Assembly (NCBI GenBank): GCA_013331535.1
Contig: DUGF01000073.1
Coordinates: 24,697-46,274 of the forward strand
Source: Microcaldota archaeon
Lineage (GTDB): Archaea > Micrarchaeota > Micrarchaeia > Anstonellales > Bilamarchaeaceae
Length of the DNA stretch: 21,578 bases
Reading direction: 5' to 3'
Shown: piece after piece, positions 1 through 19,141 of the stretch
How positions within the stretch are numbered: the stretch's first letter is position 1
How the letters are laid out: each line of letters starts with the position of its first letter
The notes under the pieces: generated by a model
Told to the model about the DNA's origin: nothing
Seen by the model: only the letters and a program-made list of their open reading frames with translations
Databases searched by the model: none
Translations under genes and position numbers: made by a program

Positions 1-2550
1 CAGGCGCATTATAAACATCGTGCCCACGTTGCTGAAAATCGTCTTGTGAAGATCAGTTGGATTCTGGCTTGCCACTATAAGCGCAAAATTATACTTACGT
101 CCTTCACGGACTATTGTTATGACATCGCTGCGTTCGTCATTTGCGATTTTCCATGCCTCGTCAAGAACAACGAATAGTTTTACTCCTTTCTCTTCCCGGA
201 TGCCTTCCCTGCGCATTATTTCCTTGATATATTGGAGAATAGTAAGTCCTGCAAGGCTGCGTATTTCCTCTGTTGGAAGGCTATGAAGATCAATGCAAAC
301 AAGGCCCGAGTGCGTGATCTTTTTCAAATCAATGCTGCTCTTCCCGGAGAAAAAATCGCTTCCTTCAACAGTGAAACGCTTGACCAGGCGGGCCGCGCTT
401 TTCTTTTTTGTCTTCAAAAGTTGTTTTGCAACATCGGCAAGAGTGGGATTTGAATTCTTTTTGGCAGCCTCATAAACTTCTTCCAGCGCCTCTTCGATAT
501 CGTCCCTCTCATGTGGATAGGTTTTGAGGTCAAGAAGAACATCCAGTGCTGAAACGATTTGTTTTATACGCTCACTTTTCGTTAATCCAGCAAGGTCAAG
601 GAGATTGAGCTTTTCTTCTCCGAGATTGATTACTGTGCCACCAGCCTGTTTTACCCATTTCACATATTCGCCAACCCAGTCCAGAATTATCGCATTGGAA
701 TCCCACAAAAGAGAGGCACGGGTAAGGAAGCTTTTTACAAGATACGAATTATGTACAAACACTCCCCCAAAACCGGCTAAGAAAACCTCGTTATCAACCG
801 AAAGGTCATACACAAATTCGTTCTTGTCGTCGACCAGTTGCTCTGTTTTTTCAACAATTGGATCCCAGAATAAATCCCCATTAGCCAGATACTCCAAGAA
901 CTCGACGTCTTTGTCTTCAAGTTGCTCCCCCTCAATCTGTACCTGTTTTAGAAAATTTGCCAGATAACCCTTAGTAGGTTGCCTTAGGCCAGTTCTGATG
1001 GAATAAGTCATTTGGGTGCGTTGAATATTGAATTTTTTCCTTACCGTTTCGATCGTGATTCCAACATTCGGAATTACATCAACGTTACTATGCCCTTTCC
1101 CACATCGCTCCACGAGTGAGATCAGGCTATGCTTTTTTCTCTCTGTTACAAAACCGATCTTTTCTGAGTATTTTTGAATATTCTCTTTGCCAGAGATGGT
1201 GATTTCATAGTAAATAGCACCTGCATGTTGAGAATTTGTCGCTCTTTTCCAATGTGGATGAAGTCTCGTTACTATTCCAAATCTCAAAAGCGCATAAGAA
1301 AGCTGGTTAGCCAGCTCTTTTGATTTTGTAGTTGCACTTACTTCTTTTTCCTCGACACCACCGTCCCCTTCAAAATAACCTTTTAAAAATTCGGCAAGAT
1401 ACTCCTGTTTAGAACTAAGGATGCAAGCAGGAATTTTTTTATCATCTGATTTGCCAGTAAGCCCGAGCCCCTTTAGCAATTGAACTATAGCTGTTGCACT
1501 TATGCGAAGGGCATCGCGTATCGAAAAGAAATTAAACCCTAGGGCTTCCAAGCATTTTTTTATATCATTCAGAAATTCGGTTTCCGTAGTAGAAATATTA
1601 ATGAAATGTTTTGTGATGCAGCCTTCAGAAACGATATAACCACATAATCTTGCAAGTGCCTTCGCCCTCGAGTCTTTTATTTCACATGGAAGCAACACCG
1701 TGCCGTTTTTGCGTCTTAGATTAATTTGCGATTTTATGGACTCCAATCCGAGTCCAAGAGCGCAGATTATTTTAATGAAATAATCTATGGGAATTGCTCT
1801 TCCGCATTTATAGCGGTACAGATATTTATCATTGCCTTTGTTAATTGGGAATTTTTTACGGATCGCACGATAATACTTTCCTATTAGTGGACCTGCTCCT
1901 GAAACATGGATGCAGCTATCCTTCAACAAATCAAATACATCGATAACGAGTTCATTCCCTTCGAACGAGATCAGTCTCGGCACAGGAAGATAATCGTCAA
2001 CCCTTACTTCTGAACCCCTGGCAACCGATATTTTTTCATCCCTGATAACTACGAGATTGTGATCCCCCGTAGTTCTTATCCCACGGCCACTTGCAGTTTT
2101 AAAAGCATACATCTTTTGCGGTGCTTTTTTACGGCCAGCAAAGCGTACTGGTATCCACTTTGCTTTTAGTCTTTCATCAAATGTATAAATTTCAAGCGGT
2201 GGATTCGGAACTCCTTCTATATCATCTAATTGTTGCACGAACATTGATTGTTTTATGATTTCGTCTACCAATTCCCCAATTTTAATTATTTCTGTGCTCC
2301 CGTTTCTTCTAATAAGGACCGGTTCGCTCTTATCTATAGATTTGCCGCTTCCAGTAATCCCGACTATGGAGATGTGCGGATTGATAAGTTTTTTGAAATC
2401 CCAAAATACAGGGGTTCCGAGAAAGCGGGTTTTACCAAGATAAATTCCATCTCCTGGAGGAGAAAGAAGCAGTTCCTTGCGTGGCTCTGGTGGATGTACC
2501 AGAATCATCTTGCCGGCAAGTTCTTTGGAAAGGATATAGTTTAATTGCAC
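1..2550 (-). CDS. VirB4/HerA-like transfer ATPase (C-terminal motor part), partial, with intein
   Basis: The frame is open from just after the TGA of the upstream gene to the left edge (850 codons seen, C-terminus missing). I chose a GTG start at 2550 because GAGGTG lies a few bases upstream and the preceding gene ends only 12 nt before. The host protein has a Walker A that becomes GITGSGKSYLVKSF after intein removal, a HerA/VirB4-type segment ILDWVGEY near 670-690, Walker B VVLDEAW near 150-175, and SQNPTDLHKTIFSNVGTMF close to the edge, which is typical of VirB4/TraC/HerA motors. The usual VirB4 N-terminal domain is absent here and seems to sit in the separate gene 2563-3345. The likely role is a hexameric ATPase at the membrane powering DNA or protein transfer. 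The family call is confident; conjugation versus DNA import versus secretion is open. Confidence 0.85.
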   Translation of the reverse strand, partial: MQLNYILSKELAGKMILVHPPEPRKELLLSPPGDGIYLGKTRFLGTPVFWDFKKLINPHISIVGITGSGKSIDKSEPVLIRRNGSTEIIKIGELVDEIIKQSMFVQQLDDIEGVPNPPLEIYTFDERLKAKWIPVRFAGRKKAPQKMYAFKTASGRGIRTTGDHNLVVIRDEKISVARGSEVRVDDYLPVPRLISFEGNELVIDVFDLLKDSCIHVSGAGPLIGKYYRAIRKKFPINKGNDKYLYRYKCGRAIPIDYFIKIICALGLGLESIKSQINLRRKNGTVLLPCEIKDSRAKALARLCGYIVSEGCITKHFINISTTETEFLNDIKKCLEALGFNFFSIRDALRISATAIVQLLKGLGLTGKSDDKKIPACILSSKQEYLAEFLKGYFEGDGGVEEKEVSATTKSKELANQLSYALLRFGIVTRLHPHWKRATNSQHAGAIYYEITISGKENIQKYSEKIGFVTERKKHSLISLVERCGKGHSNVDVIPNVGITIETVRKKFNIQRTQMTYSIRTGLRQPTKGYLANFLKQVQIEGEQLEDKDVEFLEYLANGDLFWDPIVEKTEQLVDDKNEFVYDLSVDNEVFLAGFGGVFVHNSYLVKSFLTRASLLWDSNAIILDWVGEYVKWVKQAGGTVINLGEEKLNLLDLAGLTKSERIKQIVSALDVLLDLKTYPHERDDIEEALEEVYEAAKKNSNPTLADVAKQLLKTKKKSAARLVKRFTVEGSDFFSGKSSIDLKKITHSGLVCIDLHSLPTEEIRSLAGLTILQYIKEIMRREGIREEKGVKLFVVLDEAWKIANDERSDVITIVREGRKYNFALIVASQNPTDLHKTIFSNVGTMFIMRL
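748..2340 (-). other. Intein with LAGLIDADG endonuclease inside the ATPase P-loop
   Basis: This is an in-frame insertion of 531 codons (host residues 71-601) between the Lys and Ser of GSGK/S. It starts with Ser (SIDKSEPVLIR, block A). It has TTGDHNLVV (block B with the TxxH core), two LAGLIDADG helices (ALARLCGYIVSEG around 1621-1660 and YLAEFLKGYFEGDGG around 1365-1410), and ends with EVFLAGFGGVFVHN (blocks F and G). The +1 extein residue is Ser. Removing it restores a perfect P-loop. All splicing residues visible are intact and I translated the whole insert without a stop, so it should be splicing-competent, and the homing endonuclease keeps acidic residues at both motif ends (E and D). 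P-loops of ATPases are well known intein sites. Confidence 0.93.
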
Positions 2551-16500: not shown

Positions 16501-16579
16501 ATTATATAGTTACTAAAACCAGTTATAACTTTGGCAAGTTATCACCGAAAAGAATATATATCTATTTTCAGTGATAACT
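16489..16579 (+). promoter_or_regulatory. Array of AGTTATCAC operator-like repeats around the fic promoter
   Basis: Sites: AGTTATCACTGA (16489-16500), AGTTAC (16508-16513), palindrome AGTTATAACT (16521-16530), AGTTATCACCGA (16537-16548) and TCAGTGATAACT (16568-16579). The last is an exact inverted copy of the first. The TATA-like box GAATATATAT (16552-16561) lies between the last two, and the last overlaps the expected transcription start. Confidence 0.75.
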
Positions 16580-16582
16580 ATT

Positions 16583-17563
16583 ATGTCCCGAATAATAAAA
16601 AGAATCGTGAAAGGAAAAATCTATTATTACCTAGAAGAATCCATAAAAAAAGGAACTGTGTGGGTTAAGGAAAGTGTTTATCTCGGCAAAGATTTGCCTG
16701 ACAATGTAAAACTGACTGAGATTTACAAAAAATTTGAGGATAAACTTAAGCAGAAAGGCACATCTGGGATTACACCTCCATTCACGGAATTCATAACTCG
16801 TAATCTTGCCATAAAACTAGAAAAGGCAGTTAACGACAAGTTGTTGTTTTTGAGTTCACTTTCTCCCAAACAAAGAATTGATTTTATCAGAAGGGAAAGG
16901 ATAACCTTTGTTACTGACTCAAACGCCATTGAGGGTTCAACTCTGGACTATTGGCTGACAGAAAGAGTTCTCTCAGACCAAAAAAGAATCGAATTGTTGC
17001 AGAAACGCGGAGCGACAATTACAAATATGGATCGGGAAGAACAAGAAGCACTCAATCTCAATAAGTGCCTGGATATTTATGAAAAACTCCTTAAAAATAA
17101 AAGGGAGTTAAATGAGGAGATGATTCTGCAACTTCATTGCATACTCCTTTCGAAAATAGAAGGCTATGAACAGTACTGTGGAATTTGGAGACCCGTAAAT
17201 GTAAGAATCCATAGTTCAGACCATGTTTTTCCACATCACCAAGAAGTCCCAATGCTTATGAAAGAACTGATTGAATGGCATTACAAAAATAAGAATTTGA
17301 TTCACCCCGTAGAACTTGCAGCAAAGTTCCATACGAAATTCACTACAGTTCATCCATTCGCTGATGGAAATGGGAGGATGGCAAGACTGCTTATGAATTA
17401 TATACTTCAAGCAAATAAACTTCCATTCGCAAACATACCTCTTAGAAAAAGAAGCAAATATATGCGAACTCAGGCGGCTGGCAACAGCAACAATCATAAA
17501 CTGTTTGTCATTTTCTTGGCTCAGGAAATAATCAAACAAAACCAAAAACTGAAATCAAAGTGA
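16583..17563 (+). CDS. Fic-domain protein (class II-type, self-inhibited)
   Basis: 326 residues from the leaderless ATG 16583, about 26 nt after the TATA-like box. The Fic motif HPFADGNGRMAR (257-268) is complete, so AMP- or other nucleotide transfer is possible. SNAIEG (113-118) matches the inhibitory [ST]xxxE[GN] helix upstream of the Fic core, as in class II proteins that are held inactive by their own helix. The N-terminal 60 residues are basic (IIKRIVKGKIYYYLEES), resembling the fold found before many archaeal/bacterial Fic domains. The C-terminus lacks an obvious winged helix, so the repressor acting on the operator array is not evident here. A toxin-like or regulatory modification role is inferred. 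Confidence 0.92.
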   Translation: MSRIIKRIVKGKIYYYLEESIKKGTVWVKESVYLGKDLPDNVKLTEIYKKFEDKLKQKGTSGITPPFTEFITRNLAIKLEKAVNDKLLFLSSLSPKQRIDFIRRERITFVTDSNAIEGSTLDYWLTERVLSDQKRIELLQKRGATITNMDREEQEALNLNKCLDIYEKLLKNKRELNEEMILQLHCILLSKIEGYEQYCGIWRPVNVRIHSSDHVFPHHQEVPMLMKELIEWHYKNKNLIHPVELAAKFHTKFTTVHPFADGNGRMARLLMNYILQANKLPFANIPLRKRSKYMRTQAAGNSNNHKLFVIFLAQEIIKQNQKLKSK

Positions 17564-17581
17564 CCGAAGAGCCCCCATGTC

Positions 17582-17898
17582 GCGAACGTCCGATAAAACG
17601 TCGCAACGTTCATGAACATGTACAAAATGCGATACATTTTGTATCAGACAAGTTCGCTGATGCGAACTTGCAGATGTTCAGGAACGAAGCGTCGTTCATG
17701 ACATACTGAACCAACGACCGATAAATCGATGATTCGATTTATGGTGTCGTAATCGACGATTCGATTACGAGCATGTTCATGAACGAGGTGTCGTTCATGA
17801 CATCCATTGAACGGATCGCAGTTCAATCGGAGATGAAACTTAAATTTTCAAATCCGTGTGGCTTTTAGCCACATCTCTTGAAGTTTTAGAAACTTCAA
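17582..17898. repeat. Array of about nine consecutive short hairpins
   Basis: In this 317-bp gene-free stretch almost all bases belong to inverted repeats. Stem pairs: 17621-17629/17635-17643 (9 bp, loop CGATA); 17649-17657/17662-17670 (9 bp, loop TGAT); 17682-17687/17692-17697; 17721-17729/17734-17742 (9 bp, loop TGAT); 17748-17756/17761-17769 (9 bp, loop CGAT); 17777-17786/17791-17800 (10 bp, loop GGTG); 17806-17812/17821-17827; 17857-17863/17867-17873; 17878-17886/17890-17898 (9 bp, loop TAG). A bulged stem at 17582-17604 encloses CCGATAAA. Stem sequences differ while the loops stay CGAT or TGAT-like. There is no coding frame of note. Confidence 0.85.
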
Positions 17899-17932
17899 AA
17901 TCGGTATTACTTATTTGGTTCAGTATAGGGCC

Positions 17933-18010: not shown

Positions 18011-19141
18011 TTACTGCGGCGGCATTGGCGGCTTTGTCTGTGTTCCTGTTATAGGTGCCTTTGTTTCGGTTGATGTTGCGGAAGACGGAATTACGGCTGA
18101 TGAACCGCTCCCGAACGTGATTGTGGTTTCATTTGAAGTGGCTGCAGATGAACTGGATGCAGTTGAAGCTGCCGAAGATCCCGAACCAACGCTCAAATCC
18201 GTATATGAACCGCTTGTTATCTGCTCGACCGCACGAAATATCAATGAACCATCAGATTCGATTGAACCAACCTGTGACCAGATCTCATCAAAATTTGGAT
18301 ATGCACTTGCGTCATTGGAAAGAATTACCGTAGGCACCTTGGTTATTTTGTATTTTGATACAAGTGCTTTCCCATTTTCAGAAGAGATGTCAAATGTAGA
18401 TACTCCACCAAGGCGCATTGCAAACTTGGTTTTGAGAAGATCCTGATGCAGTGAGACGTTATAACAGTCTGCACACGTAGCATCCACAAGTTCTATAACG
18501 GAAACGTCACCGACAATCTCTTTTGAATCAAGGTCTAAATATGGTGGGTAAGGAGAGCGAAATACCAGAGTTCCATCGCTTTCGCGGGTTCCGAAATTTA
18601 CCCAGGAACTGACAAGCTTGGAATCCTCGGAAAGCTTTCCGGTTATAATAAGAGTTGGGACTCTTGTAATGGAATATTTCTGAATAAGTTCTACACCCTT
18701 TTCATCGGTTGAATAGACACTGTCAACGTTTGCTATTTCTATTTCAAGAAGTGCTGCATTATTTGCAAGTGCAGTTACAAGATAGTCCGCACCTTGACAG
18801 TCATTACAGACCGAATCCTTGATTATAGTTATATAAACCGGAGTGATAGGAGTTTTAACAACGTTTACCGGAGCTGAAATAGTTTCGTTTCCTGCCAAAG
18901 CAGATGGTTGCGCAGCCTGCGGTGCAATAAAAGCGAAATAAGCCACAATCCCTAGTAAAATAACTGCAAGTGCAAGAAGAACCATTTCATTTTTTCCAAG
19001 CGCAATAGAGGAAGATGGGCCTGAAGATGGTTGCGATAACGCAGATTTCGTCTGTTGTGATTGCGTCGGCGCACTAACAGTAGTATTTGGCTTAAATTTG
19101 ACTGACCCGCTCTCTCCAGAAGTTTGTTTTTTGACTACCAT
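18011..19141 (-). CDS. Membrane-anchored protein with two thioredoxin-like CxxC domains
   Basis: 376 residues. Residues 1-50 are Ser/Gln-rich and cytosolic, with one membrane helix at about 52-73 and the rest outside. Domain 1 (about 100-195) has SVCNDCQ (Cys112/Cys115) and the cis-Pro motif RVPT (160-163). Domain 2 (about 212-307) has ATCADCYN (Cys223/Cys226) and KVPT (268-271). Both domains share the sequence layout of a duplication, including matching ESDG..VFR / ESDG..IFR ends. The last 65 residues are Ser/Thr-rich with no structure. It is likely a surface disulfide oxidoreductase or isomerase. A TATA-like ATAAAATTTT (19158-19167) about 20 nt upstream supports ATG 19141. Follows Pelota by 74 nt. 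Confidence 0.8.
   Translation of the reverse strand: MVVKKQTSGESGSVKFKPNTTVSAPTQSQQTKSALSQPSSGPSSSIALGKNEMVLLALAVILLGIVAYFAFIAPQAAQPSALAGNETISAPVNVVKTPITPVYITIIKDSVCNDCQGADYLVTALANNAALLEIEIANVDSVYSTDEKGVELIQKYSITRVPTLIITGKLSEDSKLVSSWVNFGTRESDGTLVFRSPYPPYLDLDSKEIVGDVSVIELVDATCADCYNVSLHQDLLKTKFAMRLGGVSTFDISSENGKALVSKYKITKVPTVILSNDASAYPNFDEIWSQVGSIESDGSLIFRAVEQITSGSYTDLSVGSGSSAASTASSSSAATSNETTITFGSGSSAVIPSSATSTETKAPITGTQTKPPMPPQ

Follow-up and report, generated by a model that had tools for sequence, protein, structure and literature searches.

The window, that is, the whole stretch of 21,578 nucleotides that was analyzed, contains a dense array of hairpins placed between a forward-strand gene encoding a Fic-domain protein (16571..17563; Pfam Fic, 1.4e-22) and a thioredoxin-like gene on the opposite strand, which ends at position 18011 (18011..19141; Pfam Thioredoxin_3, 3.4e-5, slightly under the cut-off). 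At the other end of the window (positions 1-2550, reverse strand), an 850-aa frame has by eye the look of a HerA/VirB4-type ATPase with an intein-like segment after GSGKS. The array contains a chain of nine hairpins at 17621-17898. Six of these have perfect stems of 9-10 bp, the hairpin at 17678-17701 has a 10-bp stem with one mismatch, and two (17806-17827 and 17857-17873) have 7-bp stems. The spacers are mostly 4-7 nt but widen ahead of 17721 (to approximately 19 nt) and ahead of 17857 (to 29 nt). The preliminary description had reported nine or more hairpins, most of them with perfect 9-10 bp stems, and almost no spacer; nine hairpins were found, six of them perfect at this length, and the close spacing is interrupted at these two points. 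The recurrence of GAACGA/TCGTTC at 17682 and 17781 was borne out. A script that searched the 317-bp region at 17582-17898 for perfect stems of 9 bp or longer and loops of 3-5 nt recovered five (six with one at the edge), whereas 300 dinucleotide shuffles of this region yielded 0.007 on average and never more than one. The array is real and far above chance expectation. It is also wider than 17582-17898, as its first unit starts at 17578 and its outer palindrome ends at approximately 17926.

The array is not one feature but several, namely, short dispersed palindromic elements of Candidatus Micrarchaeota that appear to be stacked and mutually inserted. The left flank contains one half of a further dispersed palindrome (AAAGTGACCGAAGAG...; 17557..17577), whose motif also occurs at G000:C9 (L025), at C41 (L029), and at locus L049 of G026. 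It is followed directly by the first copy of a unit designated A (unit A no. 1; 17578..17703). This copy begins with TG, ends with CA, and is enlarged by nested pieces, as delimited by coordinates and homologous junctions. Its left hairpin has arms at 17580-17589 and 17606-17615, and its right hairpin is the mismatched one at 17678-17701. The host junction, ATCTA followed by TACTG, is uninterrupted in four copies of the same genome (L009, L019, L023, and L031), and L003/L010 contain a unit homologous to unit A no. 1 with unit C in the linker. The loop of the left hairpin possibly holds a remnant of a second unit, B (17590..17600), as suggested by comparison with L011 (4150-4640), in which a whole B/A composite lies at the matching point, with CCG...TGG between TCATGAACGT and TCGCAACGTTCATGA. 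The linker of unit A no. 1 is occupied by a third unit, C (17621..17673), which consists of a TACAAAATG hairpin, a TCAGA linker, a CAAGTTCGC hairpin, and CAG. The same nesting of C in A was identified in L010 and L011, and the linker is uninterrupted in L018. Relatives of unit C were found at L049 and L051 and, in another family, at L144 and L145; the relative at L145 (genome G053) has the linker TCTGA and lies directly after an apparent tRNA gene.

The right part of the array is built on E1, a palindrome of the 62-bp class (TACTGAACCA...TGGTTCAGTA; 17704..17926) that was recognized by facing pairs of ATACTGAACCA and has been enlarged to approximately 224 bp by insertions in the window. E1 harbors unit B, which has the form CCG[hairpin]GGTCC[hairpin]CGG and is split into a left half, CCG[ATAAATCGA(TGAT)TCGATTTAT]GG (17718..17744), and a right half, TCC[ATTGAAC(GGATCGCA)GTTCAAT]CGG (17803..17830). 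When the two halves are joined, they agree with copies of unit B that are not interrupted, namely those in L129, L099, and L089 and, in part, L038. The GGTCC linker between them contains a second copy of unit A (unit A no. 2; 17745..17802), which is 58 bp long, follows the family pattern, and corresponds to G000:C76:42441-42498; its exact boundaries gave filled/empty scores of 23/24 (L038) and 21/24 (L129). Another double hairpin in the E1 interior (TGTGGCT / TTGAAGTTT; 17857..17898) is missing from the otherwise similar L009 and has a relative in a similar position in L015. Units B and C were represented by far fewer copies than unit A. The nesting read from these alignments comprises A in B, C in A, B in A, and B in E1, and most of what lies between the seemingly unspaced hairpins is thus linker sequence of units inserted one after another.

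Unit A is 58 bp long and has the architecture TG-[hairpin]-NCATGN-[hairpin]-CA. The pattern used for its identification, TG[TC-N5-CG-N-(4)-N-CG-N5-GA]NCATGN[same hairpin]CA, fixes the invariant letters only and leaves six pairs per hairpin free. The 43 units that were found collapsed to 36 distinct ones for the pairing and loop counts. The pattern-free stem pairs of these units were Watson-Crick in 421 of 432 cells, the remainder being two GT, four AC, and five other mismatches, and the 72 hairpins contained 33 different stem arms, which is not the sequence conservation of REP elements. The left loop was CGNN in 27 of the 36 units and the right loop NNCG in 31. These forms were commoner in the related units than the GAT core that the preliminary description had assigned to the loops, which is present in four of the nine loops of the array (CGATA, TGAT, TGAT, and CGAT). 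As a whole, unit A is thus roughly equal to its own reverse complement, loop rule included, with no clear sense strand, and this near-identity argues for a DNA element and against an RNA gene. A comparison of GT with AC pairs as a strand test was abandoned, since a mirror-symmetric unit can be oriented either way, and the rarity of both was used instead. Loop-loop kissing of the two CG loops was also rejected, as loss of CG on one side was by eye unmatched on the other side.

A second set of 23 aligned units gave a covariation score of 0.439, compared with 0.162 after shuffling (0/500 as high), and changes on both sides in 17 of 27 pairs (shuffled mean 14.1; 4/500 as high). All 460 cells of both hairpins were paired in this set, compared with 24-42% in slid versions and only 56.5% for the helix outside the unit, although the set was chosen from adjacent hairpin pairs and its pairing is partly by construction; the pattern-based count of 421/432 is therefore the fairer one. 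Further pair types numbered 32, which is under the shuffled mean of 36.7. The invariant positions of the 23 units, TGTC...CG...CG...GA.CATG.TC...CG...CG...GACA, are partly fixed by the finding procedure. None of the 36 distinct units had identical stems in its two hairpins; random arm pairing would give approximately 1.6 such units, so that this difference is not significant and carries no weight.

Elements of the array are dispersed in the genome of the window. The 371 bases around the array gave at least 46 matches (E<1e-3; window included) on 25 contigs of this 1.18-Mb genome, a lower bound because 40 of 46 candidate regions were scored; similar arrays therefore do exist elsewhere, an outcome whose opposite the preliminary description had named as damaging to its case. 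The pieces were reordered at other places: a stretch of C30 shares 96% identity with 17703-17854 of the window, and a different piece of the array has a counterpart of 96% identity in C98. The sequence ATACTGAACCA occurred 28 times in the genome (reversed control, 0), in 11 facing pairs (eight of 59-62 bp, the others of 110, 176, and 224 bp) and at six single places. The looser pattern TGAACGN6CGTTCA occurred 37 times and was present in 21 of 59 genomes searched, including that of the window; its reversed control gave one match each in G013 and G049. The exact pattern of unit A occurred 13 times in the genome of the window (reversed control, 0). Among 84 genomes of the order, 12 contained it, with 43 units in total, and extension of the search to 301 genomes of the phylum added no further carrier; it was thus present in 12 of 43 genomes of the family of the window and in none of 258 outside it. 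The reversed controls of the order and phylum searches were 0, and these counts come from fragmented, incomplete genomes and from an exact pattern that misses diverged copies. A collection of 84,980 species yielded 22 stretches with the two-hairpin pattern and an NCATGN linker, all titled Micrarchaeota or "archaeon." The same pattern was absent from a viral collection, and plasmid and phage records had no similarity to the array; viruses, phages, and plasmids were rejected as carriers on these grounds.

Several related arrangements were noted in other genomes. G053, which belongs to another family of the order, contained a different double hairpin of approximately the form [TGTCGAGC(nnn)GCTCGACA]AT[TGTTGAACGC(nnnn)GCGTTCAACA], in either orientation, at six of seven fetched places (L144, L146, L147, L148, L149, and L150). 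In L148 and L146, it lies, by eye, apparently inside an open reading frame; the palindromic elements of Rickettsia also lie within open reading frames. Elsewhere, a TnpB gene of the IS605 type identified by Pfam (L067:3619-4752) had unit A at its 3' end, with candidate empty counterparts in L091 and L079 and similar flanks in L063. One genome contained unit A with nearly the same flanks at L060, L064, L068, and L079, each within approximately 150 bp of a contig end; the probable carrier of these copies is a larger repeated element at which the assembly breaks.

The preliminary description had listed a structured RNA among its candidates, and the hairpins could in principle belong to one or several non-coding RNAs in which they are kept by selection on the transcript. 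The strong compensatory change in the stems is consistent with such RNAs, as is the location of 20 or more of the 36 tabulated unit-bearing places (25 places in relatives) in DNA that a crude gene caller classed as intergenic. Genes of the TnpB type have a guide RNA made at their 3' end, and one unit occupies this position. However, there is no clear strand polarity, wobble-type cells (6/432) are about as rare as other mismatches (5/432), and no Rfam family matched the window at the gathering threshold. Unit A was also found in unrelated host sequences. Among 37 clusters, 15 overlapped an open reading frame of the crude caller, 3 were unclassifiable, and 19 were classified for orientation; the last lay between convergent, tandem, and divergent genes in 4, 11, and 4 cases, respectively, which is similar to all 141 gene pairs (25, 87, and 29). 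A structured RNA is accordingly disfavored and appears improbable. A function as terminator or at 3' ends was rejected because gene orientation around the arrays is unbiased.

The mobility of unit A was assessed by comparison with empty sites. The two 30-nt flanks of each unit were joined by script and compared with fetched sequence. Contexts with a flank of less than 30 nt were excluded, as were those with N in a flank from the target tests, and 36 distinct contexts were left, which are not the same set as the 36 distinct units of the pairing counts. A candidate empty site was identified for 22 contexts and none for 14. The best filled/empty pair was G078:C45 and G078:C126 from the same genome (E 2e-20), followed by C98 (L003) of the genome of the window and L019 (E 8e-20), L025 and L043 (E 3e-18), L002 and L129 (E 5e-16), and L076 and L036 (E 2e-13); the weakest matches (E ~4e-4; L033 within a simple repeat) may be due to chance. 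Most empty sites were other copies of the host palindrome rather than the same locus in a sister strain. G036 harbored a unit between two genes; in five relatives of its genus, the corresponding genes flanked no unit, but the DNA between them was too diverged to show an exact junction.

For a test of the boundaries, each end of the removed piece was moved by as many as six bases in 22 filled/empty pairs; these pairs represented 16 of the 22 contexts, were hand-picked, and were mostly the stronger ones. In 19 of the 22 pairs, every best-scoring removal shifted both ends equally, so that the removed piece had exactly the length of the unit (58 bp alone and 114 bp with nested unit C), which leaves no room for a target duplication such as would be expected of miniature inverted-repeat elements (MITEs) of DDE transposons. 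The exact TG/CA boundaries were among the best-scoring in 10 of the 22 pairs, and the best junction otherwise lay one or two bases over. Unequal best solutions occurred in three pairs: L059/L133 was one base off where the host stem was a base pair shorter, L067/L091 had an exact solution tied with two unequal ones, and L030/L046 had no single boundary solution. As regards targets, the unit was preceded by A or followed by T in 35 of 36 contexts and in 18 of 19 host groups; at shifted positions, the count was 10-23 of 36. The grouping is relevant because contexts that share a host group are not independent. The junction was within a perfect hairpin of at least 7 bp or at most 5 nt from one in 16 of 36 contexts, compared with 174 of 4000 random positions, and a perfect hairpin was split in 7 of 36 contexts, compared with 100 of 4000; this control covered the whole DNA rather than intergenic DNA alone. 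By this test, no perfect hairpin was touched at 20 of the 36 junctions.

On these comparisons, the array is likely to be a pile-up of non-autonomous mobile mirror-image double hairpins, each of which enters the loops, linkers, or edges of other hairpins as an exact unit. The recombination site or growing element proposed in the preliminary description was close to this reading, except that growth apparently proceeds through whole double-hairpin units entering existing hairpins and linkers.

Growth without transposition was also considered, in which hairpins are born and kept perfect by template switching during replication at quasi-palindromes. Mismatches are rare (11/432) despite wide variation of the stems, as hairpin-templated correction predicts. 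On the other hand, this process does not account for a fixed unit that has the same ends, linker, and loop polarity wherever it occurs among unrelated sites, or for empty counterparts whose difference from the filled sites is exactly one unit. As the sole cause of the array it is thus slightly less probable even than a structured RNA. The templated inversion suggested in the preliminary description may help to explain the perfection of the stems but leaves exact fixed-end units at unrelated sites unexplained; template switching can still be the way in which stems stay perfect, though it is unlikely to be the only cause of the array.

It is very unlikely that the hairpins are sites for a DNA-binding or chromosome-organizing protein that have multiplied because they are useful to the host. 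Their dyad symmetry and the invariant positions of the 23 aligned units would fit such sites, although these positions are partly fixed by the finding procedure, as stated above. However, 31 of 43 genomes of the family had no match to the exact pattern, the units are nested in one another, and the stem sequences differ in most copies far more than would be expected of sites that a protein reads as double-stranded sequence. The hairpins are scarcely credible as remnants of ordinary MITEs derived from an insertion sequence with a DDE transposase, which would likewise be short, palindromic, dispersed, and non-coding. In 19 of 22 pairs a target duplication has no place, and there was no recurrent transposase among 151 neighboring proteins, no terminal repeat beyond the hairpins at the TG...CA ends, and no same-ended insertion sequence with a DDE gene and direct repeats in the fetched stretches. 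A CRISPR or integron cassette array was rejected because the stems differ from hairpin to hairpin and the eight window proteins examined with Pfam include no cas or integrase family.

If the units are mobile double hairpins, they would move through folded single-stranded or cruciform DNA, as suggested by the retention of pairing rather than sequence and by the lack of preference for either strand. An enzyme supplied in trans would cut and join without stagger, as in IS200/IS605-type or REP systems. IS200/IS605 elements are not known to produce a target duplication, and the lack of a target duplication together with the role of hairpins suggests a chemistry like that of these elements or of REP systems. 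The stems would stay perfect either because only well-folded copies move, because each hairpin is corrected from its own other arm, or both. No mobilizing enzyme was found in a survey of Y1 transposases in 59 genomes and among the 151 proteins encoded beside the elements. The Y1 transposase family (PF01797) was present in 2 of 8 genomes with unit A and 11 of 51 others, which indicates no association, and six fetched Y1 loci of relatives had no clustered hairpins. The neighboring proteins contained no recurrent gene or transposase, but only five weak pairs that were 25-33% identical. The only Y1 match in the genome of the window was a truncated gene approximately 120 bp from a hairpin array (L027:1005-1319 / L089:1805-2119). 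Y1 transposase was rejected as the partner on account of the lack of association and this truncation.

By organization, the closest known systems are REP doublets or REPINs, and the statement in the preliminary description that the hairpins are unlike REP was overstated. REP doublets, REPINs, and BIMEs with RAYT are described as pairs of palindromic units in inverted order that are separated by a short spacer, are symmetric overall, and are dispersed between genes (PMC3116915, PMC6006769). The same reports describe compensatory changes in the folding part of REPINs, movement that is thought to occur as single-stranded DNA, an alternative "clover" fold, a highly conserved REP sequence tied to a specific RAYT, and GI REPIN ends 71 bp apart (PMC3116915, PMC6006769). 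Unit A likewise consists of two inverted palindromic repeats as a unit (43 units, 36 distinct, with the linker NCATGN fixed by the pattern). In contrast to REPINs, its stem sequence is not conserved, it is nested within hairpins, it is shorter (58 bp vs. 71 bp for the GI REPIN), its host is archaeal, and no common RAYT or associated Y1 gene was identified in the genomes searched.

REPs of the CGTC class are reported to have stems of 8-9 bp and loops of 4-5 bp, often to form dimers with unlike stems, and to have no associated transposase; some REP dimers are inserted within palindromes, and the CGTC tag is sometimes TGTC (PMC3733652). Unit A resembles this class in its 10-bp stems (8 bp without TC/GA), its 4-nt loops, and its dimers. 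According to the same source, the CGTC- and GTAG-tagged families described are bacterial, have an unpaired tag with a 3-bp unpaired tail, show frequent GT pairing, and in most dimer families prefer unlike stem pairs (PMC3733652). In unit A, however, the TC of the outer TGTC pairs with GA in all 23 aligned units (these letters being fixed by the pattern), there is no tail, and GT pairing is rare (2/432).

The hairpin elements of sponge mitochondria are described as short double hairpins that form multi-hairpin structures by tandem insertion, occasionally insert in genes, and differ by a few complementary substitutions (PMC2800124). Unit A is similar in its many sites, matched empty sites, lack of coding capacity, and apparent mobility. 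The mitochondrial elements are organellar, and the account of them, as far as it was available, includes no 58-bp TG...CA unit or mirror-image loop rule (PMC2800124). IS200/IS605 elements have subterminal hairpins and single-stranded intermediates (PMC6006769), whereas unit A is mirror-symmetric and has no consistent Y1 transposase in the genomes that carry it.

A survey of bacterial and archaeal REPs published in 2025 does not name Micrarchaeota or DPANN in its main text (PMC12306157), and titles and abstracts of the open-licence literature on hairpins or inverted repeats in Micrarchaeota and on miniature inverted repeats in DPANN contained no description of such elements. Tentatively, the units may represent a new class of archaeal mobile DNA, composed of gene-free, mirror-symmetric double hairpins of 50-60 bp with no conserved stem sequence, which would be recognized by fold more than by sequence and would land in each other's hairpins to form branching trees. 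The enzyme would then be a structure-guided DNA strand-transferase of Micrarchaeota, its host, or a virus; this proposal is clearly more doubtful than the mobility of the units itself. If true, an archaeal lineage with small genomes would harbor very small mobile elements in which the fold is inherited more than the sequence. These elements would also provide a natural data set on the persistence of hairpins, on an enzyme that reads folded DNA, and on archaeal REP-like elements without RAYT.
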